Assembly (NCBI RefSeq): GCF_002633015.1 | Contig: NZ_NSIU01000022.1 | Coordinates: 1-39,097, forward strand | Origin: Sulfuricurvum sp. PD_MW2 | GTDB taxonomy: Bacteria > Campylobacterota > Campylobacteria > Campylobacterales > Sulfurimonadaceae | Direction: 5' to 3' | DNA: 39,097 bases | Shown here: positions 5,665 to 37,710 of the stretch, piece by piece | Numbering within the stretch: the stretch's first letter is position 1 | Layout of the letters: each line of letters opens with the position of its first letter | Notes under the pieces: model-generated | Told to the model about the DNA's origin: nothing | The model's input: the letters and a program-made list of their open reading frames with translations, nothing else | The model's database searches: none | Translations under genes and position numbers: made by a program

Positions 5665-8600
5665 ATGGCAAACATTCAAGACACAATCACAGAAATGGGT
5701 CAACTTTCCAACTTGGCGTATATTAGTTATGGAGATCAAATATACAAAGGGAGAACTTTTCAAGAAAATTTTACATTAAAAGACAAAGACGGAAAACCGG
5801 TTGCATTTTATCTTGACAACTCTTATACCGTTATCGATTATGATAACAACTCTGGTGGACATGGAATGGAAGCTGTTCTGCTACGGAATAACACTACAGG
5901 AAAATTCGTCATTGCCTTTCGAGGAACACAGGAACCCGAAGACTATGTCTATGACGTAACAACAGGATTTCTCAATTATAATCCGCAAATTCCAGATGCA
6001 ACGAAATTTGTAAATGATATGATTGATAAATATGGAAGTAGTGAAGGGCTTTTAAAATCCAACCTCACCCTCACAGGACATAGTCTGGGAGGTATTCTCA
6101 CCCAAGCAATCGGTGCAGATTTAAGAATCCCAGGTTATACCTTTAACTCATGGTCATCGAGTAATCTGATTGATTATACCAATTGGCTTCCTGATCCATT
6201 GGGGCTTTTGCATCGTGTTGCTTCATGGCTTGGGTGGGGAGCGGAAGAAGAAACATTTGCTCAACATAATATCCTCAATATCTCCTATACCGATTCAGGA
6301 ATGACTAATGGCGATCCGTTGTCTAATGCGCTAAGCGAAGTCCTCTGGATAAATAAATTTTTAGGCCCAATACTACCAATTTTTGGTGAAAACCTCAATA
6401 CTATTGAGGGACATAGAATGCCTAATTTGATAAAGGCATTAAATCATTATGATGCTGTATTGAAATATTTTGAAAACAAAGATTTTGTTGTGTTAACCAT
6501 GGCATATATGCTTAGTGATTTATCTCATGCTAATAAATATTACGAAACAACGGAAGGTTTTTTTAATTTAATTGGGCTTAAAAGTGCCGCATTAAACTCT
6601 TTATCATTTAACTTTTTGAATGACTTAACCCAATTTGAAATAGCCGATCAAGCTAAATCTGACCGAGCTGTTCTCTTTGCCCTTATCCGTTTAAACGGCT
6701 TTGCAGTTGAGGGTAATTTGAATGCTTATAATCTCGATTTATCTAAATATTCATCACAATATATCGAAGATCGCAGTCTGTTACTTTATACAGCTCTTCA
6801 TGCAACTACTCTTGATAGAAGTAAGTTAGAAATTCGTGATAGAGGGTTTGGAATTGGGTATGGAAGTTCTAATAACTTCGATATACAACATATTATTTTT
6901 GGTTATGATGGTGAAGACGACTTTATTGAAAAAGATTTTGGGATCATTGGAGGGAATAAAGAAGATCACATTTACGGTATGGGTGGGGATGATAAACTAT
7001 TTGGTGGTGCTGGCGATGATATCCTTGATGGCGGAGAGGGAAATGATAAACTTTATGGCGGTACAGGCAATGATACCTATTACTCAGGTGATGGGGATAC
7101 GATCAGTGACGAAGACCGTAAAGGTAAGGTATATTTTGAAGAGAAACTTCTCACAGGTGGAACGTTAAGTGAAGAACATGAACTCTACAATCTCTATCAA
7201 GGTGATGGAGGGACTTACTACTTCCAAAAAAACAATAATACGCTGATCTACCAAAAAGGGGATCAATTTCTCACCATTGAGGATTTTTATATACAAGCAA
7301 ATACGTTAGAGATAACTCTAAGCGATGGTGGCACGGTAGGAGGTAGTACTACTACTTCCAATTCTACAGGAGGGGGCAGTTCATCAGGCGGAGGCACAAG
7401 TGGTGGCGGAAGTTCATCAGGTGGAGGTACAGGTGAAACAGGGATAGGAGGTGATCCAACCTCGACTGACCCAAGCAATCCAACTCCAACTGATCCAACC
7501 GATATTCCTCCTGAAGATACCTCAACTGACAATCCCAAAGACGGTCACCCCTTTGACCCAACCTCATTCGATCCACCGCGCCGTGATCCTCTCGTACTAG
7601 ACCTAAACCATGACGGTAAAATCTCCACCGTATCCCTCTCTGATTCGAATGCTTATTTTGATCTGACAGGAGATGGGATAAAAGAGAAAGTAGGGTGGGT
7701 TCAAGCCTCTGAGGGAATCGTAGTATTTGATAAAAACGGTAACAGCAAGATCGACGGTATCAGTGAAGTATTCGGAACGGCTACCACGAGCGGATTTGCG
7801 GAACTGCGAGCTTTGGTGGATACTAACTATGACGGAGTGATCGACCGACGTGATGAACTCTACTCTCAGCTCAAAGTCTGGCAAGATACCAACGGTGATG
7901 GTATCTCTCAATCCAACGAACTCAAATCCCTCAGCCAAGTAGGGGTCAAAAACATCGAACTAAACGTCATTGGTACCAACATCAACCTAAACGGCAATAT
8001 CCTCAGTGAAGCAGGACGTTACGGTGACAGTAGGGGTACACGTTCTCTCGCGGCGGATATAGAGCTGACGTTTGACTCGCGTATCACCACCGTCGATACC
8101 GCTCTCATCCCTGATTATACTATACATCCCGAAGCCGAAGCTCTTCCAAAACTCCGAGGATATGGTGTCGTCTATAACAGTGAAATAGCCTACAACATTA
8201 ATCCCCATCTCATCTCTATCGCACAATCGCTCACCTCCGATCTCTCCACCCTCGCACAAGGGTTTGATCAGTACCTCGCCGAATACTCAGGGTTCAATAC
8301 GATGTTAAGAACCGTACAGGAAAAATACGCTCTCTCAACCACTCCGATCCTCTCCGATATGGATAAAAAAGTATGGATATACGAACACTTTATGGGAGTG
8401 AATCGTTTTAGCAGTGCTATAGAGTCCCGTATCCTCTCAACAGCAGAGGCTATGCAAACAGGCGCTCCGGCGAATGTAGTCGCAGGAGCCTATAACACTG
8501 CCAACGTCAATGCTGCCTACACCAAACTCCATGATCGCTATGAAGCAATGTTTGCTCTGCAAAGCCTCTATCCGCAGATCATGAACACAATGACCTACAA

Positions 8601-11600
8601 TGTCGGCATCGATGAGTTCGTAATCTCCGATACTGCGACATTTACCCAAAGCATCACGGATTATTTCAACAATCCGAATAATACGATCGAATCCAAACTC
8701 TATCTCGCTGATGCGATGAATACACTGGAGACGACGTTTTTGCATTTTACCGCTGCTGAAGTAACGGCAGGGATCACCGATCCATTGATAAGAGAACTCA
8801 CTAGCGCCATCTATACCGGAACGTATAAAGCACACGTCTATGAAAACGGTACCTACAGCTCAGGTAATATTCTAGCCGTCGGAAGCGAGAATGCCGACAT
8901 GATCACGATAGGCGGATTAGCAGGCTCTACAGTTTTGGCGGGGAGAGGAGATGACATCATTAACGGCTCAAAAGGCAATGATGTCTATCTTTATCGCACT
9001 GGGGATAGACGTGATACGATCATCGATGGAGGCGGGAGTGATACGCTTCGTCTCACCGATCTGTTCCAAAGTGACATTGTACTTCGATCTGAAGGGAAAA
9101 ATTTGATTATTGCTCGTTTTGAATATGGTAAAACGTTTGAAGAATTGAGCGATAAAGTGACATTCATCAACTGGCTCGATAGTGTGAATCGTATTGAAAA
9201 TATCGTATTTAGCAATGGAAGCAGTCTCGATTTCTCCACGATTGTTCGTGATTATTTTATCGGAAACGGTGATGATCGTATCGATCTCTCATCGGGTGCA
9301 GACACAATAGACTCTTTGGGCGGAAATGACATTCTACATGGTTTGGAGGGGAATGATTCACTCGATGGAGGAGCAGGTAACGATGTTCTTTACGGAGATG
9401 AAGGGGATGATATACTAGCCGGAGGTAGCGGAAACGACACCCTCGATGGGGGAAGCGAAAATGACACCTACCTCTATAACCTCGGAGACGGTAAAGACGT
9501 AATACTCAACGTGAGCGGAAAGGATACTTTACAATTCGGTGCAGGCATTAGTATAGATTCTCTGTTCGTCCAATATCTCACCAACGGCGATATGGTAATC
9601 GGACTCAAAGAAGATGCTAAAACGCTCTCAGAACTCAGCGATACAATCACGATTCGCGGATGGAATAATCCATCAAATCATTTGGAATCGATCCTCTTAA
9701 GTGATGGCAGTGTCGTCAATCTCGATACACTTCAAATCCCAACTGAGGGGGATGATCTTCTCACATTCGGTGATAACAGAGTGAGTATCGATCTATTGGG
9801 TGGCAATGATACAGTTATTTCAGGCAGCGGAAATGATGTAATTGATGGCGGCTATGGAGACGACATCTTGATAGCGGGTGTGGGGAACGATATCCTCAAC
9901 GGCGGAGTTGGTAGTGATACCTTGCAAGGGGGATTGGGAGATGATCTCTACCTCTACAGTAGAGGTGACGGTAAAGACACTATCATCGATGAATACCGCT
10001 ATGGTTACAACGGTAATTCCCAATCCAATGCAGGAAACGATACCCTCCGTTTTGGTGAGGGAGTCACGACTGCTGATCTAATTGCTAAAGTGGTTGGTGA
10101 TGATCTGATTCTCGCACTCAAAGAAGAGGGTAAAACGTTTGAAGAACTCGGCGACGTTATCACGATCAAAAACTGGGTCAACCCTGCTATCCGGATCGAA
10201 ACAATCCGCTTGAATGATGGCAGTATCGTCGATCTTGCCTCTATCCAATCGGCGAGCGAAGGAAATGATAATCTGATCTTCGGCGACAGTGCCGTAAATG
10301 TGGATGCCCTCGGTGGTAACGATACGCTTATCACAGGTTCAGCCAATGACGTGCTTCACGGCGGTGAAGGTGCAGATACGATCCGAAGTCAGGGCGGGGA
10401 TGATACCCTCTACGGTGATGCGGGAAATGATGTGCTTTATGCGGGTAGTGGTAATGACATCCTCAATGGCGGTGAGGGTGCTGATATCCTCTACGGGGAG
10501 AGCGGCAATGATACATTAGCGGGTAACGGCGGTAACGATACTCTCGTAGGAGGATTAGGAAACGATACTTACCTCTTCGGTTTGGGGGATGGACACGACA
10601 CGATCATCGACGAATACACTTACGGTTCAGGGGGCAACGATACGCTTTGTTTCGGTGAGGGGATTACGACAGCCGATCTCGTTGCTCGTTCAGTGAGCGG
10701 CAGTAACGATCTGCAAATCGGTATCCGAGAGAACGGCAAAGGGTTTGATGCTTTTAGCGACATTATCACTCTAAAAAAATGGTTTGATGCGTCCATGCGG
10801 ATCGAGAATTTCGTACTATCTGATGGAACGTCGATCAGTCTCTCGCAAATACAAGCAGGAACCGATGGAGATGATTACCTCGTTTTCGTGGATACAGATA
10901 CGGTAATGGATGCGCTGGGCGGTAATGATACAGTCATCACTGCAAACGGCAATGATACGATTAGCGGCGGAAGTGGTAATGATGTGCTAATCACTAATAG
11001 CGGAAATGATACTCTTAGTGGAGGGGAAGGGAATGATATTCTTAAAGCAGGCGATGGAAACGACATCCTCAGCGGTGGCATCGGCAACGATACATTAGAG
11101 GGGGGAGCGGGTAATGATACTTACTGTTTCGGTATCGGCGATGGCAAAGATCGCATTACCGATGGCTCAGGAGTAGATTCTCTCATCTTCGGGGATGGGA
11201 TTTCAACGGATAATCTTGTCGCCCGTGTCATCAACGGTAGTGATGATCTGCAAATCGCGATCCGTGAGGATGGCAAGAGCTTTGATCAGCTCAGCGACGT
11301 CATCACTATCAGCGGTTGGCGAAATGCGGCATACCGTATCGAAAACCTCCGTTTAAGTGACGGAACTGCCATTGCCCTTACTCAAATCGAACGATCCAGC
11401 GAAGGGGATGATTATTTGGTATTCGGTGATGAGGGGGGTAGTGTCAATGCTCTTGGTGGTAACGACACGATTATCACGGGTGAAGGGGCTGATACCCTCA
11501 TAGGGGGAGCAGGCAGCGACATCCTCAAAGGAGGAAAAGGTAACGATACTTATCTCTTTAACCTGGGCGACGGAGTTGATACCATCTTCGATGAGTTAGG

Positions 11601-14600
11601 CAGTGATACCCTCAAATTCGGGGATGGGATTACTAAAAATGATTTGATCTTTAAACAACAGGGAAATAATTTAGTTATAGGTATAGCCGAAATCAATAAA
11701 ACCTTCAATCAACTCAGTGATGTTATTACAATTACTGATTGGTTTAAATTCAACACAAATATCGAAAGTATCGTTTTTGCCGACAATACGTCGATGAGTC
11801 AATCCGATATTGCGGGATTGTTTGTTGCCAATAATATTGATGGAGCCCTCTATAGTAAACTGGGTGCAATTATGTACGGTGGGAGTGGAAATAATACCTA
11901 CGTGTATAATCGCGGTGACTTCGCAGTCGTAATCGATGATCAATACCAACAGGGTCAAATTGATGTAAATGCCGGAAATGACACTCTCTATCTCAGTGGA
12001 GGAATCAATAAAAGCGATGTGACGTTTGGGGTAGTTGGAAATGATCTTGTCTTAAAAATAGCACCAAAAGTTGATACCTACGAACAACTCAGGGATTACG
12101 TGATCATTAAAAATTGGGCAAATGTAAATCGCGGAGTAGAAAAAGTCATCTTCAGCAATGGAGAGACCTTGAATATCGATAAAACCGTTACATATCCTGC
12201 GACAGCGTTTAACTACGCATGGGTATCAAGCCAATATAAAATTTATGGAGACGATGCAAACAGTATTATCGGTACAAATACGGATGAGACATTTGAGACC
12301 AACGGAGGCAACGATACGATCAATACCGGAGGTGGTAATGACCGCATCTATGCAGGTCCGGGTAATGACGTAATCGAGGGAGGTGCAGGAAACGATGTTA
12401 CTACAATGGGTACAGGTGATGATAGCGTGACCGACAGTGGTGGAAATGATGTTTATCAATACAATAAAGGGGATGGAAAAGATACGATTTATGATTTGAG
12501 TGGAAATGATACGGTGTTATTTGGTGCAGGAATTAGCGCAGATGATTTAATGTTTCAAGTTAACGGTAAGGATCTTATAGTCGCAATCAAAAATGGGGAT
12601 ATGGCATTTGATACCTTAAGTGACAAAATCATTATTAAAGATTATTACAATCTCAAAACAAATATTGAGACGTTTAGTTTCGCTAGCGGAGAACCGAGTA
12701 TCACAAAAGATATGATTTTCACAAATCTTCCTCTTGCAGATAACAGCGCAATGAAGTTGGATGGTGCTGATGATGCGTTGGTCATTTCTAATTCAGAAGG
12801 GTTAAATGTTATAAAAGGGCTAACCTTAACATCTACGTTTAGTTACAATGGGATGGGAACAGGATATCAGAGTAGTACATATGGTATGTTGGTGACAAAG
12901 GCATATACGAATTATGCAGCGTCATATTCCATGGCAATCGATTCAACCGGAAAACTATTTTTTCAAGTCATTGAAGCCAACAATACATCCCATCGTATAT
13001 ACTCAAACACTACTCTGCATACCGGAACACTATACGACGTTGCAGGAATGTATGATCAATCTTCAGGTGTATCAAAAATCTACATTAACGGCGTATTGGA
13101 TACTGAGGCTAATGTTGGTATATTTAACATCATGCAGTCATCAGAAAGGGTGGTTGTCGGAGCGTATTGGGGATCTAGTAGTAGTTTGCGTTCATACTTA
13201 AATGGAACAGTGAGCGATGTTCAAATTTACGACAGAGCACTCTCAGAGACTGAAGTGAGCAGTATTGCAAACGGCGGTACCGGTTCAAGCGGTTTATTGA
13301 CACATTTCGATTTTGAAGGGTCTAATCCATTGCTGGATTCATCCGCCAATGGGTTTACAGCGATTCCTTTCGGAAATCCTATAGTTATTAATAACGGTAC
13401 TTTTACACCTCCTATCATTCTTGATTTGAATCATGATGGTATCACGTCGGTTTCATTAGATGATTCTTATACCTATTTTGATTACGCTGCCGATGGACTC
13501 AAAGAACATACGGCATGGATCGAAAAAGGAGATGCTCTCTTGATCCGAGATATTAATAATGATGGCATTATTAATGACGGTAGCGAGCTCTTCGGAGATC
13601 GTACTAAGCTCGCCGACGGTACTCTGGCAAGCGATGGTTATTCGGGATTGGCACAATACGATACAAACAATGATGGTGTGATTGATAAAAACGATGCGAA
13701 TTTTTCACAACTCAAACTTTGGAAAGATACAAATCAGAACGGTAAAACCGATGTAGGTGAACTGGTCGATCTCTCTGTCGCGGGAGTAACGTCACTCTCC
13801 CTTAACCGTGCCAATGGTAGTGTTTACACTCAAACTACGGAAAACGGAAATATAGTCACCAATGAAACCAACTATTCGAGTCTCGCTGGTACAGGAATCA
13901 TGCGTGACGTATGGTTCAAGATCAATGCGACTGATACGATCACCGATAATGATACGCTCTACGGAACGAGTGAATCCGAAATTCTTAGTGGTGATATCGG
14001 AAATGACACCTATGTCATTGCTTATGGGGGTGGATCAGACGTAATCGACGACAACGGCACCGGAGCCGATACCCTCAAATTCATCAGCGGTATCACTGCC
14101 GATCGTCTTGTTGTTCAATGGATTCGAGGAACGGACGATCTTCGTATTGGTATACGGGAAAACGCAGAAAACGATACCCCAATCACCGAACTACCTAATA
14201 CCATTCTCATCAAAAATTGGTTCAACGATACTGGTGCAATTGAGCAGTTTATATTTGGTGATGGCACCAAATTGAACCGCCAAGGCATCTATGATCTGCT
14301 CTTAAATGTCGAAGGCGATTTGACGATGCGGGTACTGGATGCAGGCAATAGTCTTAGTGGTAATAGCGGAAATGATGTCCTTTATGGTTTGGCAGGTTCC
14401 GAGACTCTCTACGGTAAAGAGGGCAGCGATTATCTCTCCGGTTTAGCAGGTGATGATTATCTCATCGCTAGAGCAGGTGATGATGCATTGGAAGGTGGAA
14501 AAGGAGATGATCAATTAGAAGGAGGCAGTGGAGATGATTATTACCTCTTTGAAAAAGGTGATGGCAAAGATGTCATTATTGATTCAGGTGGAATAGATAC

Positions 14601-17600
14601 TCTCTATTTTGGTAACACTATTGATCGCCGTGATGTTGTTATCAAGATGGAGGGAGAGGACCTAATCGTCACCTTTTCTTACAATGATGGAATATCCAAC
14701 GATGCCATCGATCAAATAACCATCAAAAACTGGAATGTTGATGATTTTAGACTCGAATCCTTTGCCTTCAGTGATGGTAAAGAATATACCTTGAATGAAT
14801 TGATTGCCAAAAATACGAACCATGCTCCAGAGATGTTCTTCGAAGAGGGAGAGCGAACTCTTGGTAAAGAGCGTAGTGCCAAAGGGATATTGCTTGCCGA
14901 TGACATGGATGGAGATTCACTTAGCTATTCAGTCACTTCTGCACCGACGATGGGAACGATCAGTATTAATCAATATGGAATTTGGAGCTACAGCGGGACA
15001 TCACGCAATGCAGGAACCGATACTGTAACCATAGCAATTAAAGACGGACGGGGGGAGACGACAACGACATTGTCATTTGTAATGGAAGCCCTCAACCAAG
15101 CTCCTGAAGCCCCAGCAGAGACTACCCATACACTCCAAGATATTCGTATCCTTAGCGGAGAGATCGGAGCTACAGATCCAGATGGCGACACACTTACTTA
15201 TACGGTAAGCTCCGCAGCTGCTCACGGAACAATCATTGTCGATGCAAACGGTGTATGGAATTACAGTGCAGCAAATGGTTATATGGGAAGCGATAGCGCT
15301 ATTATCACGATTGATGACGGTAACGGAGGAGTAATCACGCAAACTTTGAATTTCGATGTAAAAGTATCAGCTCCAACACTTTCCGACAGTACCTCCAATC
15401 TCCTTGAAGATACTAGTGCTACAGGAGTCTTGAATGTTACTAACCCAGTAGGCGGCATACTCACCTATGAAGTGCTTACTTCATCCTCTAAAGGCTCATT
15501 TAACATCAACGAAGCAGGGGACTGGAACTATACTCCTAATGCTGACTTAAACGGAGATGACAGCGTCATCCTCAAAGTGACCAATGAATACGGATTGAGT
15601 ACGACCACCAGATTATCATTTGCTATAGAAGCTGTCAACGACGCTCCAAACGTCATCGGAACGGTTCATCTTGCTATGGTAAACGAAGACAGTGGGACGA
15701 TAACGATTACGGCAGAACAGCTCCTCTCAAACGCAAGTGACGTGGACGGTGATACGTTGAGTATTAAAAACCTCACTGCTTCGAGCGGAACGCTGATTGA
15801 TAATCATGACGGAACTTGGTCGTTGATACCATCAGCAAATTTCAACGGTACAATTACCCTGAATTATAGTGTCTCAGACACGCAGATCGATACCGCCGCC
15901 ATTGCAACGCAATATCTAGTTCCAGTCAATGACGCACCTGTAATCGATGCAAATAATCAGCATTTTCTTTTAGAAAACACTCGTACAATGGGTGGGACAA
16001 TAGCAGTAAGCGATGTCGATGGTGATACGTTGGCTTACTCGGTCAGTACCCAAGCCACTCATGGAGTTGTAAGTGTCGACAGTTATGGAAATTGGACATA
16101 CAAAGCAGATGGATCATTTAATGGAGAGGATAGTGCTATTGTCACGATTGATGATGGACATGGTGGTCAAGTAACTTCAGTATTAAATTTTACAGTCAAG
16201 GGATACCTATATGAAGGTAAGAACTTGATTATTAATGATAACGGTACTGATACATTGGTTATGACATCGGTCAATCAAGAAGATATGACTTTTAGCCGTA
16301 ACGGCAATGATCTAGCTATCCGTGTCAATAATGGATCGACCGTAACACTGAAAAACTTCTTTACGAATATAACAGCCGGTGTTCAAACAATTGCTACAGC
16401 CCAAGGTAATATAACCCTTATTAGAGACGCCATCAATAACTCCCAATACGGAGGATACAGCGCTAGCGATTCTAACGATCACCTCATAATCGGCGATGAC
16501 AACAGTAACTGGCTTATCGGAAACGGGGGAGATGACATCATCGTTGCAGGCTCGGGGTACGACTACGTTAACGGCGGTGATGGAAATGATCTATTGATCG
16601 GAGGCAGTGATGCTGACAATCTCTTCGGCGGTAACGGAAACGATACAATATACGCTGATGATGGAAACGACAGCGTATACGCAGGAACAGGTAATGATGA
16701 ACTCTTTGGAGGCAACGGCGATGATACCTTATTTGCCGATGACGGAAATGATACTGTTAGCGGAGGTGCGGGTAACGATACGATTTATGCTGGAACCGGA
16801 AACGATACGATCAAGGGCGGTACCGGAAATGACTCCATCAATGGTGATACAGGAAGTGATACTTACCTCTTTAATATAGGTGATGGAAACGATACCATCG
16901 TGGATACTTCATCGTATGGAAGTTTAGATAAAGATACCCTTGTATTCGGTGCTGGAATCACCAAAAATAATTTGCAGTTCATACGCGATAATTACGATTT
17001 AGTGTTAAAAGTAAATGACAACGATTCGGTTAGAATCCAATACTGGTTTGGATCAGATAAAAGAAATACCTTGGAATCTATTTTATTTGCTGATCAAACA
17101 ACATTGACAACCGATCAAATCAACAACTTGGCAATCGTTAAAGGAAGTACAGGGAATGATTGGATAAGTGGAATCGATTATATGAACGATCATATGTATG
17201 GACTCGCAGGCAATGACGGTCTTTACGGTTACGGTGGTAATGATACTCTCGATGGTGGTGATGGAAATGACATCGTCGATGGCGGTGCGGGTAATGATAC
17301 ACTTATCGGCAGTAAAGGTGCTGATTCTCTCAACGGAGGATACGGTAGCGATACCTACAGTTTTAGTATTGGAGACGGGGCTGATACGATTACCGATTGG
17401 TCGCAATACGGTAGTAACGATTCGGATTGTATTACATTCGGTGCAGGGATCACCAAAAATGATGTGCGTTTTATGATGAAAAATGGTAATTTGTTAATTG
17501 GCTATGCTCAGAATGATACCATCAACGTCCAATACGCTAAAAACTCCCAAGCACAAATCGAGAAATTTACCCTTAGTGACGGCAAATATCTCACTTCAAA

Positions 17601-17730
17601 TGATCTGAATGTGATTATCCAATCGATGAATGCCTACGCTACAGATCACGGCATGTCAATCACTTCGCTTGATACAGTGAAAAACAATCAGTCACTCATG
17701 AATATTGTCGCCGGAGCATGGCATCCATAA
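5665..17730 (+). CDS. Giant RTX exoprotein with N-terminal class-3 lipase-like domain
   Basis: The 4021-residue product is the likely cargo of the adjacent exporter. Residues 1-280 resemble a class-3 lipase: FRGT (85-88) as oxyanion motif, the elbow GHSLG with Ser140, and probable Asp217 (NGDPLS) and His250 (EGHRM). A first RTX block follows (about 413-482), then a Gly/Ser/Thr/Pro linker (about 555-635) and an EF-hand-like segment (from 643). A long RTX array (about 1085-2350), a LamG-like domain (about 2362-2536), a second EF-hand-like segment (about 2584-2730), more RTX, five cadherin/VCBS-like repeats (3052-3512) and a C-terminal RTX array complete it. There is no Sec signal, and I found only three Cys, both usual for type I substrates. 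The start follows TAAGGA. Function as a calcium-dependent secreted lipase or adhesin is inference. Confidence 0.92.
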   Translation: MANIQDTITEMGQLSNLAYISYGDQIYKGRTFQENFTLKDKDGKPVAFYLDNSYTVIDYDNNSGGHGMEAVLLRNNTTGKFVIAFRGTQEPEDYVYDVTTGFLNYNPQIPDATKFVNDMIDKYGSSEGLLKSNLTLTGHSLGGILTQAIGADLRIPGYTFNSWSSSNLIDYTNWLPDPLGLLHRVASWLGWGAEEETFAQHNILNISYTDSGMTNGDPLSNALSEVLWINKFLGPILPIFGENLNTIEGHRMPNLIKALNHYDAVLKYFENKDFVVLTMAYMLSDLSHANKYYETTEGFFNLIGLKSAALNSLSFNFLNDLTQFEIADQAKSDRAVLFALIRLNGFAVEGNLNAYNLDLSKYSSQYIEDRSLLLYTALHATTLDRSKLEIRDRGFGIGYGSSNNFDIQHIIFGYDGEDDFIEKDFGIIGGNKEDHIYGMGGDDKLFGGAGDDILDGGEGNDKLYGGTGNDTYYSGDGDTISDEDRKGKVYFEEKLLTGGTLSEEHELYNLYQGDGGTYYFQKNNNTLIYQKGDQFLTIEDFYIQANTLEITLSDGGTVGGSTTTSNSTGGGSSSGGGTSGGGSSSGGGTGETGIGGDPTSTDPSNPTPTDPTDIPPEDTSTDNPKDGHPFDPTSFDPPRRDPLVLDLNHDGKISTVSLSDSNAYFDLTGDGIKEKVGWVQASEGIVVFDKNGNSKIDGISEVFGTATTSGFAELRALVDTNYDGVIDRRDELYSQLKVWQDTNGDGISQSNELKSLSQVGVKNIELNVIGTNINLNGNILSEAGRYGDSRGTRSLAADIELTFDSRITTVDTALIPDYTIHPEAEALPKLRGYGVVYNSEIAYNINPHLISIAQSLTSDLSTLAQGFDQYLAEYSGFNTMLRTVQEKYALSTTPILSDMDKKVWIYEHFMGVNRFSSAIESRILSTAEAMQTGAPANVVAGAYNTANVNAAYTKLHDRYEAMFALQSLYPQIMNTMTYNVGIDEFVISDTATFTQSITDYFNNPNNTIESKLYLADAMNTLETTFLHFTAAEVTAGITDPLIRELTSAIYTGTYKAHVYENGTYSSGNILAVGSENADMITIGGLAGSTVLAGRGDDIINGSKGNDVYLYRTGDRRDTIIDGGGSDTLRLTDLFQSDIVLRSEGKNLIIARFEYGKTFEELSDKVTFINWLDSVNRIENIVFSNGSSLDFSTIVRDYFIGNGDDRIDLSSGADTIDSLGGNDILHGLEGNDSLDGGAGNDVLYGDEGDDILAGGSGNDTLDGGSENDTYLYNLGDGKDVILNVSGKDTLQFGAGISIDSLFVQYLTNGDMVIGLKEDAKTLSELSDTITIRGWNNPSNHLESILLSDGSVVNLDTLQIPTEGDDLLTFGDNRVSIDLLGGNDTVISGSGNDVIDGGYGDDILIAGVGNDILNGGVGSDTLQGGLGDDLYLYSRGDGKDTIIDEYRYGYNGNSQSNAGNDTLRFGEGVTTADLIAKVVGDDLILALKEEGKTFEELGDVITIKNWVNPAIRIETIRLNDGSIVDLASIQSASEGNDNLIFGDSAVNVDALGGNDTLITGSANDVLHGGEGADTIRSQGGDDTLYGDAGNDVLYAGSGNDILNGGEGADILYGESGNDTLAGNGGNDTLVGGLGNDTYLFGLGDGHDTIIDEYTYGSGGNDTLCFGEGITTADLVARSVSGSNDLQIGIRENGKGFDAFSDIITLKKWFDASMRIENFVLSDGTSISLSQIQAGTDGDDYLVFVDTDTVMDALGGNDTVITANGNDTISGGSGNDVLITNSGNDTLSGGEGNDILKAGDGNDILSGGIGNDTLEGGAGNDTYCFGIGDGKDRITDGSGVDSLIFGDGISTDNLVARVINGSDDLQIAIREDGKSFDQLSDVITISGWRNAAYRIENLRLSDGTAIALTQIERSSEGDDYLVFGDEGGSVNALGGNDTIITGEGADTLIGGAGSDILKGGKGNDTYLFNLGDGVDTIFDELGSDTLKFGDGITKNDLIFKQQGNNLVIGIAEINKTFNQLSDVITITDWFKFNTNIESIVFADNTSMSQSDIAGLFVANNIDGALYSKLGAIMYGGSGNNTYVYNRGDFAVVIDDQYQQGQIDVNAGNDTLYLSGGINKSDVTFGVVGNDLVLKIAPKVDTYEQLRDYVIIKNWANVNRGVEKVIFSNGETLNIDKTVTYPATAFNYAWVSSQYKIYGDDANSIIGTNTDETFETNGGNDTINTGGGNDRIYAGPGNDVIEGGAGNDVTTMGTGDDSVTDSGGNDVYQYNKGDGKDTIYDLSGNDTVLFGAGISADDLMFQVNGKDLIVAIKNGDMAFDTLSDKIIIKDYYNLKTNIETFSFASGEPSITKDMIFTNLPLADNSAMKLDGADDALVISNSEGLNVIKGLTLTSTFSYNGMGTGYQSSTYGMLVTKAYTNYAASYSMAIDSTGKLFFQVIEANNTSHRIYSNTTLHTGTLYDVAGMYDQSSGVSKIYINGVLDTEANVGIFNIMQSSERVVVGAYWGSSSSLRSYLNGTVSDVQIYDRALSETEVSSIANGGTGSSGLLTHFDFEGSNPLLDSSANGFTAIPFGNPIVINNGTFTPPIILDLNHDGITSVSLDDSYTYFDYAADGLKEHTAWIEKGDALLIRDINNDGIINDGSELFGDRTKLADGTLASDGYSGLAQYDTNNDGVIDKNDANFSQLKLWKDTNQNGKTDVGELVDLSVAGVTSLSLNRANGSVYTQTTENGNIVTNETNYSSLAGTGIMRDVWFKINATDTITDNDTLYGTSESEILSGDIGNDTYVIAYGGGSDVIDDNGTGADTLKFISGITADRLVVQWIRGTDDLRIGIRENAENDTPITELPNTILIKNWFNDTGAIEQFIFGDGTKLNRQGIYDLLLNVEGDLTMRVLDAGNSLSGNSGNDVLYGLAGSETLYGKEGSDYLSGLAGDDYLIARAGDDALEGGKGDDQLEGGSGDDYYLFEKGDGKDVIIDSGGIDTLYFGNTIDRRDVVIKMEGEDLIVTFSYNDGISNDAIDQITIKNWNVDDFRLESFAFSDGKEYTLNELIAKNTNHAPEMFFEEGERTLGKERSAKGILLADDMDGDSLSYSVTSAPTMGTISINQYGIWSYSGTSRNAGTDTVTIAIKDGRGETTTTLSFVMEALNQAPEAPAETTHTLQDIRILSGEIGATDPDGDTLTYTVSSAAAHGTIIVDANGVWNYSAANGYMGSDSAIITIDDGNGGVITQTLNFDVKVSAPTLSDSTSNLLEDTSATGVLNVTNPVGGILTYEVLTSSSKGSFNINEAGDWNYTPNADLNGDDSVILKVTNEYGLSTTTRLSFAIEAVNDAPNVIGTVHLAMVNEDSGTITITAEQLLSNASDVDGDTLSIKNLTASSGTLIDNHDGTWSLIPSANFNGTITLNYSVSDTQIDTAAIATQYLVPVNDAPVIDANNQHFLLENTRTMGGTIAVSDVDGDTLAYSVSTQATHGVVSVDSYGNWTYKADGSFNGEDSAIVTIDDGHGGQVTSVLNFTVKGYLYEGKNLIINDNGTDTLVMTSVNQEDMTFSRNGNDLAIRVNNGSTVTLKNFFTNITAGVQTIATAQGNITLIRDAINNSQYGGYSASDSNDHLIIGDDNSNWLIGNGGDDIIVAGSGYDYVNGGDGNDLLIGGSDADNLFGGNGNDTIYADDGNDSVYAGTGNDELFGGNGDDTLFADDGNDTVSGGAGNDTIYAGTGNDTIKGGTGNDSINGDTGSDTYLFNIGDGNDTIVDTSSYGSLDKDTLVFGAGITKNNLQFIRDNYDLVLKVNDNDSVRIQYWFGSDKRNTLESILFADQTTLTTDQINNLAIVKGSTGNDWISGIDYMNDHMYGLAGNDGLYGYGGNDTLDGGDGNDIVDGGAGNDTLIGSKGADSLNGGYGSDTYSFSIGDGADTITDWSQYGSNDSDCITFGAGITKNDVRFMMKNGNLLIGYAQNDTINVQYAKNSQAQIEKFTLSDGKYLTSNDLNVIIQSMNAYATDHGMSITSLDTVKNNQSLMNIVAGAWHP
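6898..7110 (+). repeat. First RTX nonapeptide block after the lipase-like domain
   Basis: This stretch encodes tandem GGxGxDxxx nonapeptides, including GMGGDDKLF, GGAGDDILD, GGEGNDKLY and GGTGNDTYY. Such repeats fold into a calcium-binding beta-roll. The block separates the lipase-like domain from the low-complexity linker and is isolated from the larger arrays that begin about 1.8 kb later. Confidence 0.85.
7327..7570 (+). repeat. Gly/Ser then Asp/Pro/Thr low-complexity linker in the RTX protein
   Basis: The encoded segment is first GGGSSSGGG-like and then rich in Asp, Pro and Thr (for example TDPSNPTPTDPTD). It lies between the lipase/RTX head and the EF-hand-like segment and is most simply a flexible tether. 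The short repeats in the DNA make it a likely site for length variation. Confidence 0.75.
8917..12720 (+). repeat. Tandem array of RTX plus HCBP-related modules
   Basis: About eight degenerate modules follow one another. Each has several RTX nonapeptides, a strand of the type TYLFNLGDGKDTI, then SDTLxFGxGI, a DLxIxIxExGKTFxxLSDxITIxxW stretch and RIExIxLSDGS. The W-containing motif recurs as TFINW, TIRGW, TIKNW, TLKKW, TISGW, TITDW, IIKNW and IIKDY. This matches the haemolysin-type calcium-binding related domain alternating with RTX repeats. Five further copies occur downstream, 13 in all. The repeats are clear in protein but diverged in DNA. Confidence 0.85.
12750..13275 (+). other. LamG/concanavalin-like domain inside the RTX protein
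   Basis: Residues about 2362-2536 fit the LamG-like jelly-roll pattern: MKLDGADDALVI at the start, a central LYDVAGMYDQSSGVSKIYINGV motif region, and the closing GTVSDVQIYDRALSETEV. Such domains often bind glycans or other surface ligands. It sits between the large RTX array and the second EF-hand-like segment and contains no RTX repeats, so it looks like an inserted module. Confidence 0.75.
14818..16200 (+). repeat. Five cadherin/VCBS-like tandem repeats in the RTX protein
   Basis: Five units of about 90-97 residues begin near 14818, 15094, 15367, 15637 and 15928. Most start with an N-x-A-P motif, and each has a central glycine-rich strand of the form GT(I/L)xxxxxGxW. Units 1, 2, 4 and 5 carry an Asp-Gly-Asp calcium-type motif (such as DVDGDTLxY); unit 3 has NPVGGILTY instead. 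This is the bacterial cadherin-like/VCBS repeat pattern typical of large adhesins. Confidence 0.8.
16480..17400 (+). repeat. C-terminal RTX arrays of the giant exoprotein
   Basis: Two dense runs of GGxGxDxxx repeats (about 16480-16860 and 17190-17340) are each followed by a TYLF/TYSF strand and an FGAGITKN motif. They precede a roughly 110-residue C-terminus ending in AWHP. Calcium-triggered folding of the last RTX repeats outside the cell usually powers type I export, so these are the likely secretion-proximal repeats. The signal itself should lie in the final 60 or so residues. Confidence 0.8.
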
Positions 17731-28577: not shown

Positions 28578-28595
28578 TCTCGCACATTTCTTGCA
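28578..28595 (+). promoter_or_regulatory. Sigma-54-type promoter of nifE
   Basis: TCTCGCACATTTCTTGCA fits the -24/-12 pattern (TGGCAC-N5-TTGC) except that the GG at -25/-24 reads CG. The -12 C is at 28594, predicting a start near 28606, 23 bases before the nifE ATG. The same 18 bases recur before nifN with one change, which strongly supports function. RpoN is encoded about 8 kb downstream. Confidence 0.75.
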
Positions 28596-28599
28596 TTGG

Positions 28600-28631
28600 C
28601 ATAGGTACTTCATCTTGAGGAGTATTCTATG
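28600..28631 (+). promoter_or_regulatory. Inverted repeat enclosing the nifE ribosome-binding site and AUG
   Basis: The left arm CATAGGTACT (28600-28609) pairs with the right arm AGTATTCTATG (28621-28631): CATAG/CTATG plus TACT/AGTA, with a G-U wobble and one bulged U between them. The loop ends in TTGAGG, part of the Shine-Dalgarno, and the right arm ends in the AUG. The predicted sigma-54 start at about 28606 lies inside the left arm, so only read-through RNA could form the whole stem. Confidence 0.5.
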
Positions 28632-29990: not shown

Positions 29991-30086
29991 AAAACGTTTA
30001 ACTATCCATATTGCAACAAAGATGCAACGTAGGAGAGATACTATTATCCTTATAAAATGAGAGACTCGATATAGGGATAACGCACG

Positions 30087-31322
30087 ATGCAAAATGATTT
30101 GAAAATTCTTACACGACTTGGCAAAGATCTGAGAATAATGATTGTTGCCGGTACAGAAGAGCTTTCTCATACTTCCCGTGAAATATTGACTCCCTATTTT
30201 GATGAAATTGTGGCTGTTACTTCGGCTCGCGATGCTATCACCCAATACACTCCGAGTACTTTTGCCATAGTCTATGTTGATCTGAGTCTTAGCGATATGG
30301 ATGGAATGGAACTTATCACGAAACTCCAAAGTCTTGACAAATATCAAAAGTTTATTGTTCTGATTGATAAAGAGAATGTTCCTGTCATGACAAAACTGTA
30401 TGAAATAGGGGTGACATTTTTTGCGATCAAACCTTTCATGCCGAAATGCTTTTTGCAGGTGACCTACGATGTTATACGGATCGTCTTGCCGGATCAATAT
30501 GTAGAAGAGCAGGTGCGGGAATTTCACAAAAAACTTGAAGATATTACCGAAGAGAACAAATTGCAATGCAATCTTTTAATGCAGCAATCCAAATTGGTTC
30601 AAACCGGGGAAATGCTCTCGATGATCGCCCACCAATGGCGTCAGCCTCTATCGGTGATTACCGCTATTATCGCAACAACACGAACACGGATGGATTTGGA
30701 TCTTTACAAGCGATCAGATGACCCTTATGGGGCAATCGAGAAGGATTTGCATAACGCTTTTGTCCGGATTGAAGAGGCTGCCGATTTTTTATCAAAAACG
30801 GTTAATGATTTTCGTAATTTTTACCGCCCGACGAATACGGCAAATACTTTCAATGTAGCTGAATTGATCAATAGTGTATGCCGTATGGTAATTCCTGAAA
30901 AACATTATCTTGACATAGAGTTAGACTTGAACATAGATACCGGCATCGTTATTACTAACTTTGAAAATGAACTCAAACAGGTACTGATCAATATTATCAA
31001 CAATGCCAAAGATGCATTTATAGAAAAAGATATAGCAAAACCGAAACTTCGTATTACTCTTCAAAAAAAGGGCGAGAGAATTTGTATCAATATCACGGAT
31101 AATGCGCAGGGGATTCCTCAGGCTATCATTGAGAAAATATTTTTACCTTATTTTTCTACTAAGAGCGAAAAAAATGGTACCGGTATCGGATTGCATATGG
31201 CAAAAACTATCATTGAACGGCATGTAGGCGGTACATTGAGTGTCAGTAATGATGCAGTATTTGGGGGAGCTGATTTTAGTATTGAAATTATCCCCGATAA
31301 ACTAAATGAGGAGGAATTATGA
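30087..31322 (+). CDS. Soluble histidine kinase with a degenerate receiver domain, within the nif cluster
   Basis: The 411-residue protein has no membrane helix. Residues about 15-130 are receiver-like: Asp65 (YVDLSLSDMDG) and Lys115 (FAIKPF) are kept, but the acidic pair reads Ala21-Gly22 (IMIVAGTEE) and the Thr/Ser position reads LIDKE, so phosphorylation is doubtful. A short coiled coil follows, then the H-box MIAHQWRQPLS with His182, an N-box (NIINNAKDAF), ITDNAQGIP and a G-box GTGIGLHMAK near 364. It is thus probably an active kinase with a pseudo-receiver input. The stop overlaps the next gene as ATGA. A cytoplasmic signal (nitrogen, redox or a protein partner) is likely, but unknown. 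Confidence 0.88.
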   Translation: MQNDLKILTRLGKDLRIMIVAGTEELSHTSREILTPYFDEIVAVTSARDAITQYTPSTFAIVYVDLSLSDMDGMELITKLQSLDKYQKFIVLIDKENVPVMTKLYEIGVTFFAIKPFMPKCFLQVTYDVIRIVLPDQYVEEQVREFHKKLEDITEENKLQCNLLMQQSKLVQTGEMLSMIAHQWRQPLSVITAIIATTRTRMDLDLYKRSDDPYGAIEKDLHNAFVRIEEAADFLSKTVNDFRNFYRPTNTANTFNVAELINSVCRMVIPEKHYLDIELDLNIDTGIVITNFENELKQVLINIINNAKDAFIEKDIAKPKLRITLQKKGERICINITDNAQGIPQAIIEKIFLPYFSTKSEKNGTGIGLHMAKTIIERHVGGTLSVSNDAVFGGADFSIEIIPDKLNEEEL

Positions 31323-32368
31323 TCAGTGCCAAGGATGTTTATCATTTTTCACAAAAACTCTGTGTTTTGTATGTAGAAGATGATGCGTGTTTACGAGAAG
31401 AGATGACATTATTGCTCAGTCCGTTTTTTGAATACATTGATGTCGGTGTAGACGGTGTAGACGGATTGGAAAAGTATAATTCCCGAAAATTCGATATTGT
31501 CATAACCGATATCAATATGCCTAGAATGAATGGTATTGATATGATTTCAGCGATTCGGGAAATTCATCCGGAACAAAAAGTGATTGCAGTTTCAGCCCAT
31601 AATGAACCGGAGATTTTGATTCAGTTGATTGAAAATGGTGTCAGCAGCTTTATTTTAAAACCGATTATGCAGCAAAATGTTCTCAATGTACTCTATCCGG
31701 TCTGTAGGGATGCAAATGCACAAAATGTCAATATTGAACTTTTTGAGATGCTTAACCGTGAACGCAGCAAACTTGAAAAACAGGTGAGATTGCTCACGGC
31801 ACAAATCAATGCAATCTCAATCAAGAATGATCAGGTGAATGAACTTTTAACAAATGATACGACAAGTCTTGTAGATCCGGTATTGGAAGATTATTTTGGT
31901 CATGATTTAGACGATGATGCCGATAGCGTATTGTTTATCAAAGATGATACCGATGAGATGAGTGAAATTTTGAATGATATTTTGGATCAAATTTGTCTAT
32001 ACAGTAGTAATTTCGATATTGAGCACATTCGTAAGATGTCGGTATTGATTACTAAATTCTCAAATATTTTATACCGTTACACCCCATTTTTGGATCCATT
32101 GGCAAAAAGTATTGGTGAATTGGCAAAAATCATTGAAGATGATGAGGTTAACTTTACTACCTTGTTCAATAAAAATCCCGAACATATTTTAAAACTATTC
32201 GATGCTATTTGTATTGACATGACTCTTTACGTTCAACGCTTCTCGGTAGAAAGCATGGCGATGAAGAATATTCATCAGATTCATCTTCCGACGATTATGA
32301 GTATTCAGCAAGTGATTGGATTGATTAATCCGGAAGATTTGGAAGAGGGTGATTTAGACCTCTTCTAA
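31319..32368 (+). CDS. Response regulator without a DNA-binding domain, partner of the adjacent kinase
   Basis: Residues about 12-130 form an intact receiver: Glu20-Asp21-Asp22 (VEDD), phospho-acceptor Asp64 (VITDINMPRMNG), Ser92 (VSAHNE) and Lys114 (ILKPI). A coiled-coil linker (RERSKLEKQVRLLTAQ) leads to about 200 residues of acidic, helical sequence with no recognised helix-turn-helix, GGDEF, AAA+ or enzyme motif (for example EDYFGHDLDDDADSVLF). Output is therefore probably by protein-protein contact. Overlap with the kinase gene by four bases makes them a cognate pair. It ends six bases before the nifN sigma-54-type element. Confidence 0.85.
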   Translation: MISAKDVYHFSQKLCVLYVEDDACLREEMTLLLSPFFEYIDVGVDGVDGLEKYNSRKFDIVITDINMPRMNGIDMISAIREIHPEQKVIAVSAHNEPEILIQLIENGVSSFILKPIMQQNVLNVLYPVCRDANAQNVNIELFEMLNRERSKLEKQVRLLTAQINAISIKNDQVNELLTNDTTSLVDPVLEDYFGHDLDDDADSVLFIKDDTDEMSEILNDILDQICLYSSNFDIEHIRKMSVLITKFSNILYRYTPFLDPLAKSIGELAKIIEDDEVNFTTLFNKNPEHILKLFDAICIDMTLYVQRFSVESMAMKNIHQIHLPTIMSIQQVIGLINPEDLEEGDLDLF

Positions 32369-32374
32369 AAGTTA

Positions 32375-32392
32375 TCTCGCACACTTCTTGCA
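32375..32392 (+). promoter_or_regulatory. Sigma-54-type promoter of nifN
   Basis: TCTCGCACACTTCTTGCA is identical to the nifE element except for one base. The -12 C is at 32391, predicting a start near 32403, about 15 bases before the ATG. It begins just after the response regulator stop, so nifN and the genes behind it can be transcribed independently of the kinase/regulator pair. Confidence 0.78.
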
Positions 32393-32395
32393 ATA

Positions 32396-32422
32396 TCCAT
32401 GACAACAAGGAGTTGTCATGGA
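32396..32422 (+). promoter_or_regulatory. Perfect 11-bp hairpin holding the nifN start codon, Shine-Dalgarno in loop
   Basis: TCCATGACAAC (32396-32406) and GTTGTCATGGA (32412-32422) are exact reverse complements separated by AAGGA, the Shine-Dalgarno core. The right arm contains the nifN ATG (32418-32420). The predicted sigma-54 start (about 32403) is inside the left arm. RNA from that promoter keeps at most about six pairs and leaves the AUG free; read-through RNA can form all eleven. Confidence 0.7.
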
Positions 32423-33716
32423 ATTCTCCCTCTCTAAACACGAACATAAACCGCTTCAAGTAAATCCGATCAAACACTCCCAGCCGATGGGGGCAACCCT
32501 CGCATTTTTAGGGGTAAAAGATTGTATGCCTCTCATGCACTCTGCACAAGGGTGCGCCTCGTATACCAAAGTCTTTTTTACCCGACATTTCAACGAACCC
32601 ATCGCCATTAACAACACTTCGGTGAGTGATATTACTGCCGTCCTCGATGGGGGAGATTATTCGATACTCATGGCAATTGAGAATATCCAGAATAAAGAGA
32701 AAAATCTCAAGCCTTCCATGATCGGTCTGCACACGACGGGACTTACCGAGACCAAAGGGGATGATGTTCGCGGCGTTGGAACTCATATCGAGATCCCTTA
32801 TGTGTTCGTCAATACTCCCGATTATGAAGGGGGAATGGAGAGTGGATGGGCGCTCACAGTCACGGCAATGATCGAACAGCTCACCGTAGAGGCAACCGAA
32901 ATCAAATCTGACAAGCTCGTTTTTCTTCCTCATCTCAGCATGCAGCCGATCGAAGTGGAGAAGATCAAAGGATTTTGCGAGGACTTCGGGTTTGAGACCT
33001 ATGCACTTCCCGATCTCTCGACCTCACTTGATGGGTACTGGGAAGCAGGGCAGGGAAAACTTGCCAACGGTGGAATCACGGTTGAACAGATACGCGATTT
33101 GGCAACCTCTAGTGTTGTTGTCAGTATCGGCGCATCGATGAAAAAATCGGCATTGGCACTTCAAAAAAAGAATCCTTTAATTACGCATTTTCATTTCGAT
33201 CATCTGATGGGATTGGACGGGTGCGACAATTTTGTAAGTAGCTTGATGGAAATCCGACAAGATGAACCAAAACCGATGATTAAACGGTGGCGAGCGCGGT
33301 TACAAGATGCGATGCTCGATACCCATTTTCTGATCGGGAGTTCCCATTTTGTTATTACGGGAGAACCTGATATGTTAGTGGGGATGTGTTCCTTGATCAA
33401 CAGTGTCGGCGGAACCATCCGTGCAGCCGTCTCCACGACGTTTAGCGATTCGCTCCACCTGATCGATGCGGAGAAAGTATTTGTCGGGGATTTGGAAGAT
33501 GCATGCGCTTTTTTTGATGATGCGGATATGGTCATCAGCAATTTTCATGCAGAACGGATCTTGCATACTACTTATCATACGGCGCTCGTTGTCCGAGGAT
33601 TTCCAAATTACGAAGAGTTAGGAAACCAGCTCAAAAACGATCAACTGTATGAGGGAAGTACTTACTTTTTGTTTGAAATAGCTAACGAACTGAGAAAGGT
33701 TAAACATGAACACTAA
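32418..33716 (+). CDS. nifN: Nitrogenase FeMo-cofactor scaffold subunit NifN
   Basis: NifN is the beta-type partner of NifE in the cofactor scaffold. The 432-residue product shows the NifN/NifK-like N-terminus NPIKHSQPMGATLAFLGVKD, Cys46 in MHSAQGCASYTKVFF, and STSVSD-like NNTSVSDITAVLDGGDY. It also has IGLHTTGLTETKGDDV, YVFVNTPDYEGGMESGW, and HFHFDHLMGLDGCDNF later on. The length is usual for NifN. The ATG follows AAGGAG, which lies in the loop of a strong inverted repeat. Its 3' end overlaps nifX by 11 bases. Confidence 0.96.
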   Translation: MEFSLSKHEHKPLQVNPIKHSQPMGATLAFLGVKDCMPLMHSAQGCASYTKVFFTRHFNEPIAINNTSVSDITAVLDGGDYSILMAIENIQNKEKNLKPSMIGLHTTGLTETKGDDVRGVGTHIEIPYVFVNTPDYEGGMESGWALTVTAMIEQLTVEATEIKSDKLVFLPHLSMQPIEVEKIKGFCEDFGFETYALPDLSTSLDGYWEAGQGKLANGGITVEQIRDLATSSVVVSIGASMKKSALALQKKNPLITHFHFDHLMGLDGCDNFVSSLMEIRQDEPKPMIKRWRARLQDAMLDTHFLIGSSHFVITGEPDMLVGMCSLINSVGGTIRAAVSTTFSDSLHLIDAEKVFVGDLEDACAFFDDADMVISNFHAERILHTTYHTALVVRGFPNYEELGNQLKNDQLYEGSTYFLFEIANELRKVKHEH

Positions 33717-36382: not shown

Positions 36383-36400
36383 TTTCATAAGAACAAAATA

Positions 36401-36414
36401 TGCACTCGGTTTGC
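36401..36414 (+). promoter_or_regulatory. Possible sigma-54-type site before rpoN
   Basis: TGCACTCGGTTTGC keeps GCAC and TTTGC at the same 5-base spacing as the nifE and nifN sites but has AT rather than TG at the first two positions of the consensus. The -12 C at 36414 predicts a start near 36426, 19 bases before the ATG at 36445. It would allow RpoN autoregulation. The match is weaker than the other two and the surrounding sequence is not shared. Confidence 0.3.
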
Positions 36415-36444
36415 GTCAATGTGTATTTTTTTAGGCGGTTTATC

Positions 36445-37710
36445 ATGCAAACGACACTCTCTTATAAACAAAAGCAGCTTCCCCGTTTATCAATGCAGAC
36501 ATGGCTCCCTTTATTGCAATGTTCATTGAATGATCTTGAAAAACATTTACAAATTATTACAAATGAAAATCCTTGTTTAGAGGTAAAATCTGGATTTGAA
36601 GAGTCAAATTCAGGAGTAGGGGGAAATACGGCATACGGCGCATTTCAAAACTATGTTTCCAATTCATCGAGCGATCAGATCGAGTGGCTCAGTATCTCTT
36701 CTACTTCACTCTATGAAAAACTTGATGAACAGATTGTTGCACCGCTATTTCCCACGCCAATCTCTCAAAAAATTGCACGTCAAATCGTTTACTACATTAA
36801 TGACGAAGGGTATTTTGAAGGCTCGGTCGAAGAGGTAGCACGGCAGTGTGACACTGATGCTCAGAGTGTCGAGAGAGTGCGTCAGCGCTTTGCCCACTTG
36901 GAACCCTCCGGTGTTGGGGCTGTCGATTACAAAGAGTCCTTTTTGTTTCAGCTCAGCGACTATGATTTGGACGATGAACTGAGTATCTTGCTCAGTGCGA
37001 TGATTTTGCAGTTTGACAAGATGGAAAAATTTATCAACCATCCGAGATTGCATGATGCCAAACATATACTGCAGCAGCTCCATAATCCTCCGGCATTGGA
37101 GTATATGGAACCGGAAGCACAAGTGACTCCAGATTTGTTCGTTGAGTTTTCGGGTTCGGAACTCAATATCCGTATCAATCATGCCTTTTATCCCGATTTG
37201 CAGGTGAATTTGATCGATAAATACGATAATTTTGCCCGTCAAAAATTCAAAGAGGCACGTGAACTGGTGAAATTGCTCGATTTGCGTAAAGCGACCCTTT
37301 ATAACGTCGCATTAGTGCTGCTTGAGAAACAGTATGGCTTTTTTATGGGGGGAGAGCTGAAACCGCTTCGTTTGCAGGATGTGGCGGATGAACTGGGATT
37401 TAACGAATCGACGATCTCTCGTGCGATTGCCGATAAATATATCCAAACCGAACGGGGACTCTTTGCGTTCAAAGATTTTTTTTCCAACTCGATCGGAGAA
37501 GTCTCCACGTCAGAGATCAAACATTTCTTACAGCGTTTGGTGAGCAGTGAAAACAAAGAGGACCCATTTAGCGACAAAACACTGCACGAGATGATCGAAG
37601 AGCGTTTTGGGGTGAAAATGGTGCGTCGCGTTATCGCCAAATACCGTCAGGAACTCGATATCCCTTCCTATAAAGAGCGGTTATTTTTGTATAAACTTGA
37701 ATTGCTCTGA
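36445..37710 (+). CDS. rpoN: RNA polymerase sigma-54 factor RpoN
   Basis: Sigma-54 directs RNA polymerase to -24/-12 promoters and needs an AAA+ activator. The 421-residue product has all parts. Region I is at the N-terminus (YKQKQLPRLSMQTWLPLLQCSLNDLEKHL), followed by an acidic region and the core-binding domain (KIARQIVYYINDEGYFEGSVEEVAR). The helix-turn-helix region is LRLQDVADELGFNESTISRAIADKYIQTERGLFAFKDFF. The RpoN box is MVRRVIAKYRQ, close to the consensus ARRTVAKYRE. I chose ATG 36445, with AGGCGG upstream, because the 15 codons before it do not resemble a sigma-54 N-terminus. Its position after nif genes suggests a role in nif control; no NifA-like activator is in the window. Confidence 0.95.
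   Translation: MQTTLSYKQKQLPRLSMQTWLPLLQCSLNDLEKHLQIITNENPCLEVKSGFEESNSGVGGNTAYGAFQNYVSNSSSDQIEWLSISSTSLYEKLDEQIVAPLFPTPISQKIARQIVYYINDEGYFEGSVEEVARQCDTDAQSVERVRQRFAHLEPSGVGAVDYKESFLFQLSDYDLDDELSILLSAMILQFDKMEKFINHPRLHDAKHILQQLHNPPALEYMEPEAQVTPDLFVEFSGSELNIRINHAFYPDLQVNLIDKYDNFARQKFKEARELVKLLDLRKATLYNVALVLLEKQYGFFMGGELKPLRLQDVADELGFNESTISRAIADKYIQTERGLFAFKDFFSNSIGEVSTSEIKHFLQRLVSSENKEDPFSDKTLHEMIEERFGVKMVRRVIAKYRQELDIPSYKERLFLYKLELL

Follow-up and report, generated by a model that had tools for sequence, protein, structure and literature searches.

In the insertion sequences IS10 and IS50, fold-back of the mRNA inhibits translation of the transposase; the complementary strand is present in external transcripts alone, so that the gene is guarded against chance activation by external promoters. 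Phage T4 uses hairpins at the translation start sites of genes e, soc, 49 and I-TevI, which lock early read-through RNA, while RNA from the late promoter is made without the 5′ strand (PMC3014915). For gene e, an inhibition of ~100-fold was measured, and the scheme is conserved in related phages (PMC3014915).

Here, we describe a hairpin at the start of nifN in Sulfuricurvum sp. PD_MW2, within a window (the whole stretch of DNA analysed) of 39,097 nucleotides. The original prediction had invoked the logic of T4 gene e for this hairpin, and the scheme laid out in the T4 review (PMC3014915) is indeed the same. Like gene e, nifN would have its start hidden in longer upstream transcripts and open in RNA from its own promoter, which would begin in or after the 5′ strand, and pairing is mostly kept in relatives. 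With IS10 and IS50, nifN would share protection from chance activation by outside promoters.

Drawing on comparisons of related leaders and on RNA folding predictions, we consider that the nifN hairpin has probably been selected as a translational lock that acts against read-through and forms part of the nifN promoter itself. In a sigma-54-type promoter, the anti-start strand would be encoded from the −12 box to ~+1. Transcripts entering from upstream would contain this strand, draw the Shine-Dalgarno sequence and/or the AUG into a stem and be poorly translated. Initiation by RpoN and NifA at ~32403 would leave most of the strand out of the transcript, no stem would form and the start site would be open. 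NifN synthesis would then be tied to the gene's own promoter, irrespective of the cargo between nifE and nifN. In this scheme, we infer the position of the start, the existence of read-through RNA and the effect on translation.

The hairpin and promoter element at the nifN start

The features referred to below are as follows.

28580–28631, plus strand: nifE element (28580–28595), the same element as at nifN, and a weaker start hairpin (ATG at 28629)
30087–32368, plus strand: kinase and response regulator genes (Pfam), cargo of the nifE–nifN gap in this genome and a possible source of read-through
32377–32392, plus strand: −24/−12 element TCGCACACTTCTTGCA (TCGCAC-N5-TTGCA), sigma-54-like, with exact or near copies before nifN in 21 leaders and before nifE
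32396–32406, plus strand: 5′ arm (anti-start strand), −7 to +4 of the predicted start, perfect complement of 32412–32422
32403, plus strand: predicted transcription start (+1), 12 nt past the −12 C and inside the 5′ arm
32407–32412, plus strand: Shine-Dalgarno sequence AAGGAG, with AAGGA as the loop and G as the first base of the 3′ arm, invariant in all promoter-proximal leaders
32412–32422, plus strand: 3′ arm containing the nifN ATG (32418–32420), with just one variable base in class I (see below) and a paired double change in G012
32418–33716, plus strand: nifN open reading frame (TIGR01285, 377.8 bits; cut-off 326.8)

The inverted repeat proved to be exactly where it had been reported: 32396–32406 (TCCATGACAAC) and 32412–32422 (GTTGTCATGGA) are 100% complementary over 11 bp, the loop between them is the core of the Shine-Dalgarno sequence, and the ATG lies within the 3′ arm. 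Among perfect hairpins with a loop of 3–8 nt in the window it is the longest, with ~0.07 such hairpins of at least 11 bp expected by chance over the whole window. RNA with the full stem has a folding energy of −16.9 kcal/mol (z −5.5; 0 of 200 shuffles equally good) as compared to −4.5 kcal/mol (z −0.2) for RNA starting at 32403. The predicted release of the AUG in promoter-derived RNA was thus reproduced at the level of folding prediction: opening the start site would cost ~16.5 kcal/mol in read-through RNA and ~4.9 kcal/mol in RNA from the predicted +1. Two other identities of the hairpin were rejected, namely an intrinsic terminator, as a U tract is absent 3′ of the stem, and a known RNA family, as an Rfam search of the leader returned 0 family matches. 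No copy was found in plasmid or viral collections.

A sigma-54-dependent start near 32403, as originally predicted, is likely from the arrangement of the element. Spacing, −12 box and the GC at −13/−12 agree with this assignment, whereas the −24 box (TCGCAC versus the consensus TGGCAC) is atypical, its −25 base being C instead of G, as also in many nifE genes. The element before nifH reads TAGAAC-N5-TTGCA, and nifE genes of outgroup genera carry TGGCAC, TGGTAC or TCGAAC, followed by N5-TTGCA, at the equivalent place. Since TGGCAC or TGGTAC occurs there in outgroup nifE, the −24 box of Sulfuricurvum appears to be a derived form of the sigma-54 element.

Both RpoN and NifA are encoded in the genome, with two RpoN genes (one in the nif cluster), a NifA above the TIGR01817 cut-off and, in addition, a FlgR-like activator. 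The two RpoN genes (window 36400–37710 and G000:C13:17582–18832) are 43% identical; the one in the nif cluster may be adapted to TCGCAC, the unusual −24 box that nifE and nifN have. The NifA site TGT-N10-ACA was not enriched upstream of nifN in the 21 leaders (1 found, 1.4 expected). Such an activator site is not strictly required for a sigma-54 promoter, and a divergent NifA site at nifN is possible.

Leader variation among Sulfuricurvum genomes

Across 41 Sulfuricurvum genomes and genome contigs, nifN occurs in three arrangements. In G007, G026 and G032, nifE adjoins nifN and no promoter precedes it, as in outgroup genera. Twenty genomes, contributing 21 leaders, have [CA]CGCAC-N5-TTGCA ~40 nt before the nifN ATG, and on those contigs that reach nifE, other genes separate nifE from nifN. 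G030, G035 and G038 keep the element but have ~70 nt of extra sequence with a repeat before the ATG; in this long leader, the lock is absent. The short repeat (GCCGCTATGGCACTAAAGCTTGC...), situated in the promoter–nifN interval of these three genomes (L011, L013, L014), also occurs just 3′ of nifN in G003 and G010 (L005, L024) and resembles a REP-like or other small mobile element.

Within the 21 promoter-proximal leaders, Shine-Dalgarno sequence and start (AAGGAGTTGTCATGG) are nearly constant, and it is the stretch from the −12 box to the Shine-Dalgarno sequence that varies. In class I (13 of 21 leaders), the 5′ strand pairs with the ATG side; in class II (8 of 21), CTCCTT pairs with AAGGAG, the Shine-Dalgarno sequence. 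A comparison of the arms in relatives had been named beforehand as a check, and its outcome was favourable: the 5′ arm varies, pairing is mostly kept, and eight genomes use a different hairpin. Because this comparative prediction held, the earlier interpretation, while only partly supported, is now stronger than when it was proposed.

The two classes are mixed on the nifN tree, where they have switched at least four times; the sisters G020 (class II) and G024 (class I), grouped with support of 100/100, are one such case. Given that class II leaders are highly alike, recombination of leaders between lineages appears as likely as re-evolution of the classes. In G022 and G024, the minimum free energy fold joins the −12 region to the Shine-Dalgarno sequence rather than forming the class I stem. 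The nifN gene of G012 (L028) is apparently broken (split matches, internal stop), with promoter and hairpin intact.

We computed with ViennaRNA the cost of keeping the region from Shine-Dalgarno sequence to AUG unpaired, both in read-through RNA and in RNA beginning at the predicted +1. This opening cost was 8.0–16.7 kcal/mol for read-through RNA of the 21 leaders and 3.7–7.4 kcal/mol, mostly ~4.9, from the predicted +1, the mean dropping from 12.2 to 4.9 kcal/mol. Scanning the 5′ end along the leaders gave means of 12.1 kcal/mol at −8 relative to the predicted start, 7.5 at −4, 6.6 at −2, 5.1 at −1 and 4.9 at the start, and a flat course beyond. Class II leaders were almost open at −4; class I leaders opened no earlier than the last base before the start or the start itself. 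With the predicted +1, the promoter would omit all or most of the 5′ strand from its transcript in 21 of 21 leaders.

These profiles bear on the alternative that the hairpin lies inside the functional nifN mRNA, with transcription starting upstream of the stem, and either stabilises the 5′ end or acts as a regulated switch, responding for example to a bound factor or to temperature. We regard this as unlikely. The −24 box is atypical and the start predicted, and some factor could open a stable hairpin on a start codon; however, the class II 5′ strand starts only ~5 nt past the −12 C, too near for a sigma-54 start before the strand, and in both classes the cost flattens at or before the predicted +1. 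The leader has no Rfam counterpart, and the loop offers no conserved sequence beyond the Shine-Dalgarno sequence for a factor to bind.

The lock against read-through that we prefer was also weighed against functionless pairing, arising as a by-product of shared ancestry, a pyrimidine-rich spacer and a −12 box (CTTCTTGC) partly complementary to AAGGAG. Random spacers of equal composition alone reached a mean of 8.2 kcal/mol (sd 0.38), partly through pairing of this promoter sequence with AAGGAG; four leaders (G017, G021, G022, G024) pair weakly and did no better than random spacers, and nifH leaders had no excess. Yet the 17 distinct spacers, taken with their relatedness, averaged 12.4 kcal/mol, and 400 of 400 null sets were lower. 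Together with the two alternative stems and the substitution spectrum described below, which is biased relative to adjacent columns, this makes a mere by-product improbable. Among 150 start sites with a good Shine-Dalgarno sequence in the loci compared, taken as background, nifN and nifE starts prevailed at the top of the cost ranking. A high opening cost alone is not diagnostic, as promoter-less nifN starts at the nifE–nifN junction can be costly too (18.3 kcal/mol in G026).

In class I, 95.7% of cells were paired, as against at most 59.7% in slid alignments. Parsimony on the nifN tree placed 14 changes in the ten core arm columns, two of which break pairing and 12 retain it. The latter are wobble-tolerated transitions, C/U opposite G and A/G opposite U, whereas ~ten changes in the four adjacent upstream columns were nearly all transversions (Fisher p ~0.0005–0.003, depending on how ambiguous events are counted). 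G012 provided the single paired double change, from A-U to G-C. Class I showed no excess covariation over shuffles of the 3′ letters, variation being almost wholly one-sided; covariation is in fact almost impossible here, since Shine-Dalgarno sequence and code leave the 3′ arm no freedom to change.

This pattern would not be expected of a DNA-binding site. That a repressor binds the dyad as a DNA operator overlapping the promoter start—the perfect symmetry of the dyad being centred near +6, a common repressor position—seems to us very improbable, since dyad sequence and position differ between classes I and II while pairing is kept, and one-sided wobble changes spoil the symmetry of the DNA yet preserve pairing of the RNA.

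The nifE–nifN gap and other nif leaders

The window carries nifE, a kinase gene (30087–31322), a response regulator gene (31319–32368) and nifN in this order; elsewhere, it holds a 4021-residue open reading frame (5665–17730). The kinase and regulator genes had been named as the origin of read-through RNA. They are codirectional with nifN, the regulator gene ends 27 nt before the hairpin, and no plus-strand intrinsic terminator was found between the two. Nonetheless, this part of the prediction stands for the present locus at most, as the kinase pair was found in this genome's gap only among the genomes examined.

The gap (window 29991–32417; L112–L130) is an insertion hot spot. Depending on the genome, unrelated genes occupy from 0 to 7.5 kb of it, and in most cases the nifN promoter that comes next is the same. 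Cargo elsewhere, named from translated sequences alone, comprises MscS-like, flavodoxin-fold oxidoreductase, TrpB-like, chemoreceptor, Fic, PIN and HEPN/MNT genes. As gap genes differ in nearly every genome, it is plausible that the lock shields nifN from transcription that happens to start upstream.

The gene directly upstream of nifN is divergent in 10 of 19 scored genomes. Since this applies to about half of the genomes, read-through from a neighbouring gene cannot be the general source of the locked RNA; with divergent cargo, the source would have to be nifE itself or pervasive transcription. The lock was present with either orientation, and its strength with a codirectional as compared to a divergent neighbour (13.2 versus 11.7 kcal/mol) did not differ significantly (p 0.12). 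General insulation fits better than a response to a single upstream operon such as the kinase pair.

In this genome, opening the nifE start was predicted to cost 8.4 kcal/mol in read-through RNA and 6.3 kcal/mol from the predicted +1, within the spacer-shuffle null. A subset of genomes has a nifE start stem, GGATACT/AGTATCC, with some double changes and 77% of cells paired; covariation in this stem was not above shuffles. The strength of the nifE lock rose with a codirectional upstream gene (p 0.009), an association that was not significant in phylogenetically independent pairs. The nifE promoters of outgroup genera showed little lock. Leaders of nifH were rejected as locks, CCCCTTG/CAAGGGG occurring in some genomes only, unconserved and not above the null.

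A broader reading, for and against which we see the balance as even, is that Sulfuricurvum nif promoters at the insertion hot spot carry a built-in, evolvable lock. The segment from −12 to +1 would be selected as RNA that its own promoter never transcribes, would have been rebuilt or exchanged several times, and would keep the nif gene silent unless NifA and RpoN fire.

Relation to known systems

If the lock exists as proposed, a strand that is active in read-through RNA only can be encoded by cellular promoters as well as by phage and insertion sequence promoters, and expression depends, through translation, on which promoter gave rise to the RNA. Such insulation would pay for tightly activated sigma-54 genes located beside changing cargo. 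Other sigma-54 regulons can be screened for the pattern, which might also find use as an insulator when nif clusters are engineered. In line with the original prediction, no precedent for nif genes was found in the literature searched, in which subscription papers are scarce, nor was there one for sigma-54 promoters.

With respect to IS10 and IS50, the inhibitory strand there is part of the terminal inverted repeat, while that of nifN spans the −12 box to +1 and has no role in transposition. As compared to T4 gene e, nifN belongs to cellular metabolism and has a promoter of the sigma-54 type, two stem designs interchange within one genus, and the effect, measured in T4, is a prediction in the case of nifN. 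The mechanism is thus known in kind, and its setting and the two interchangeable stems are, as far as we can tell, new.
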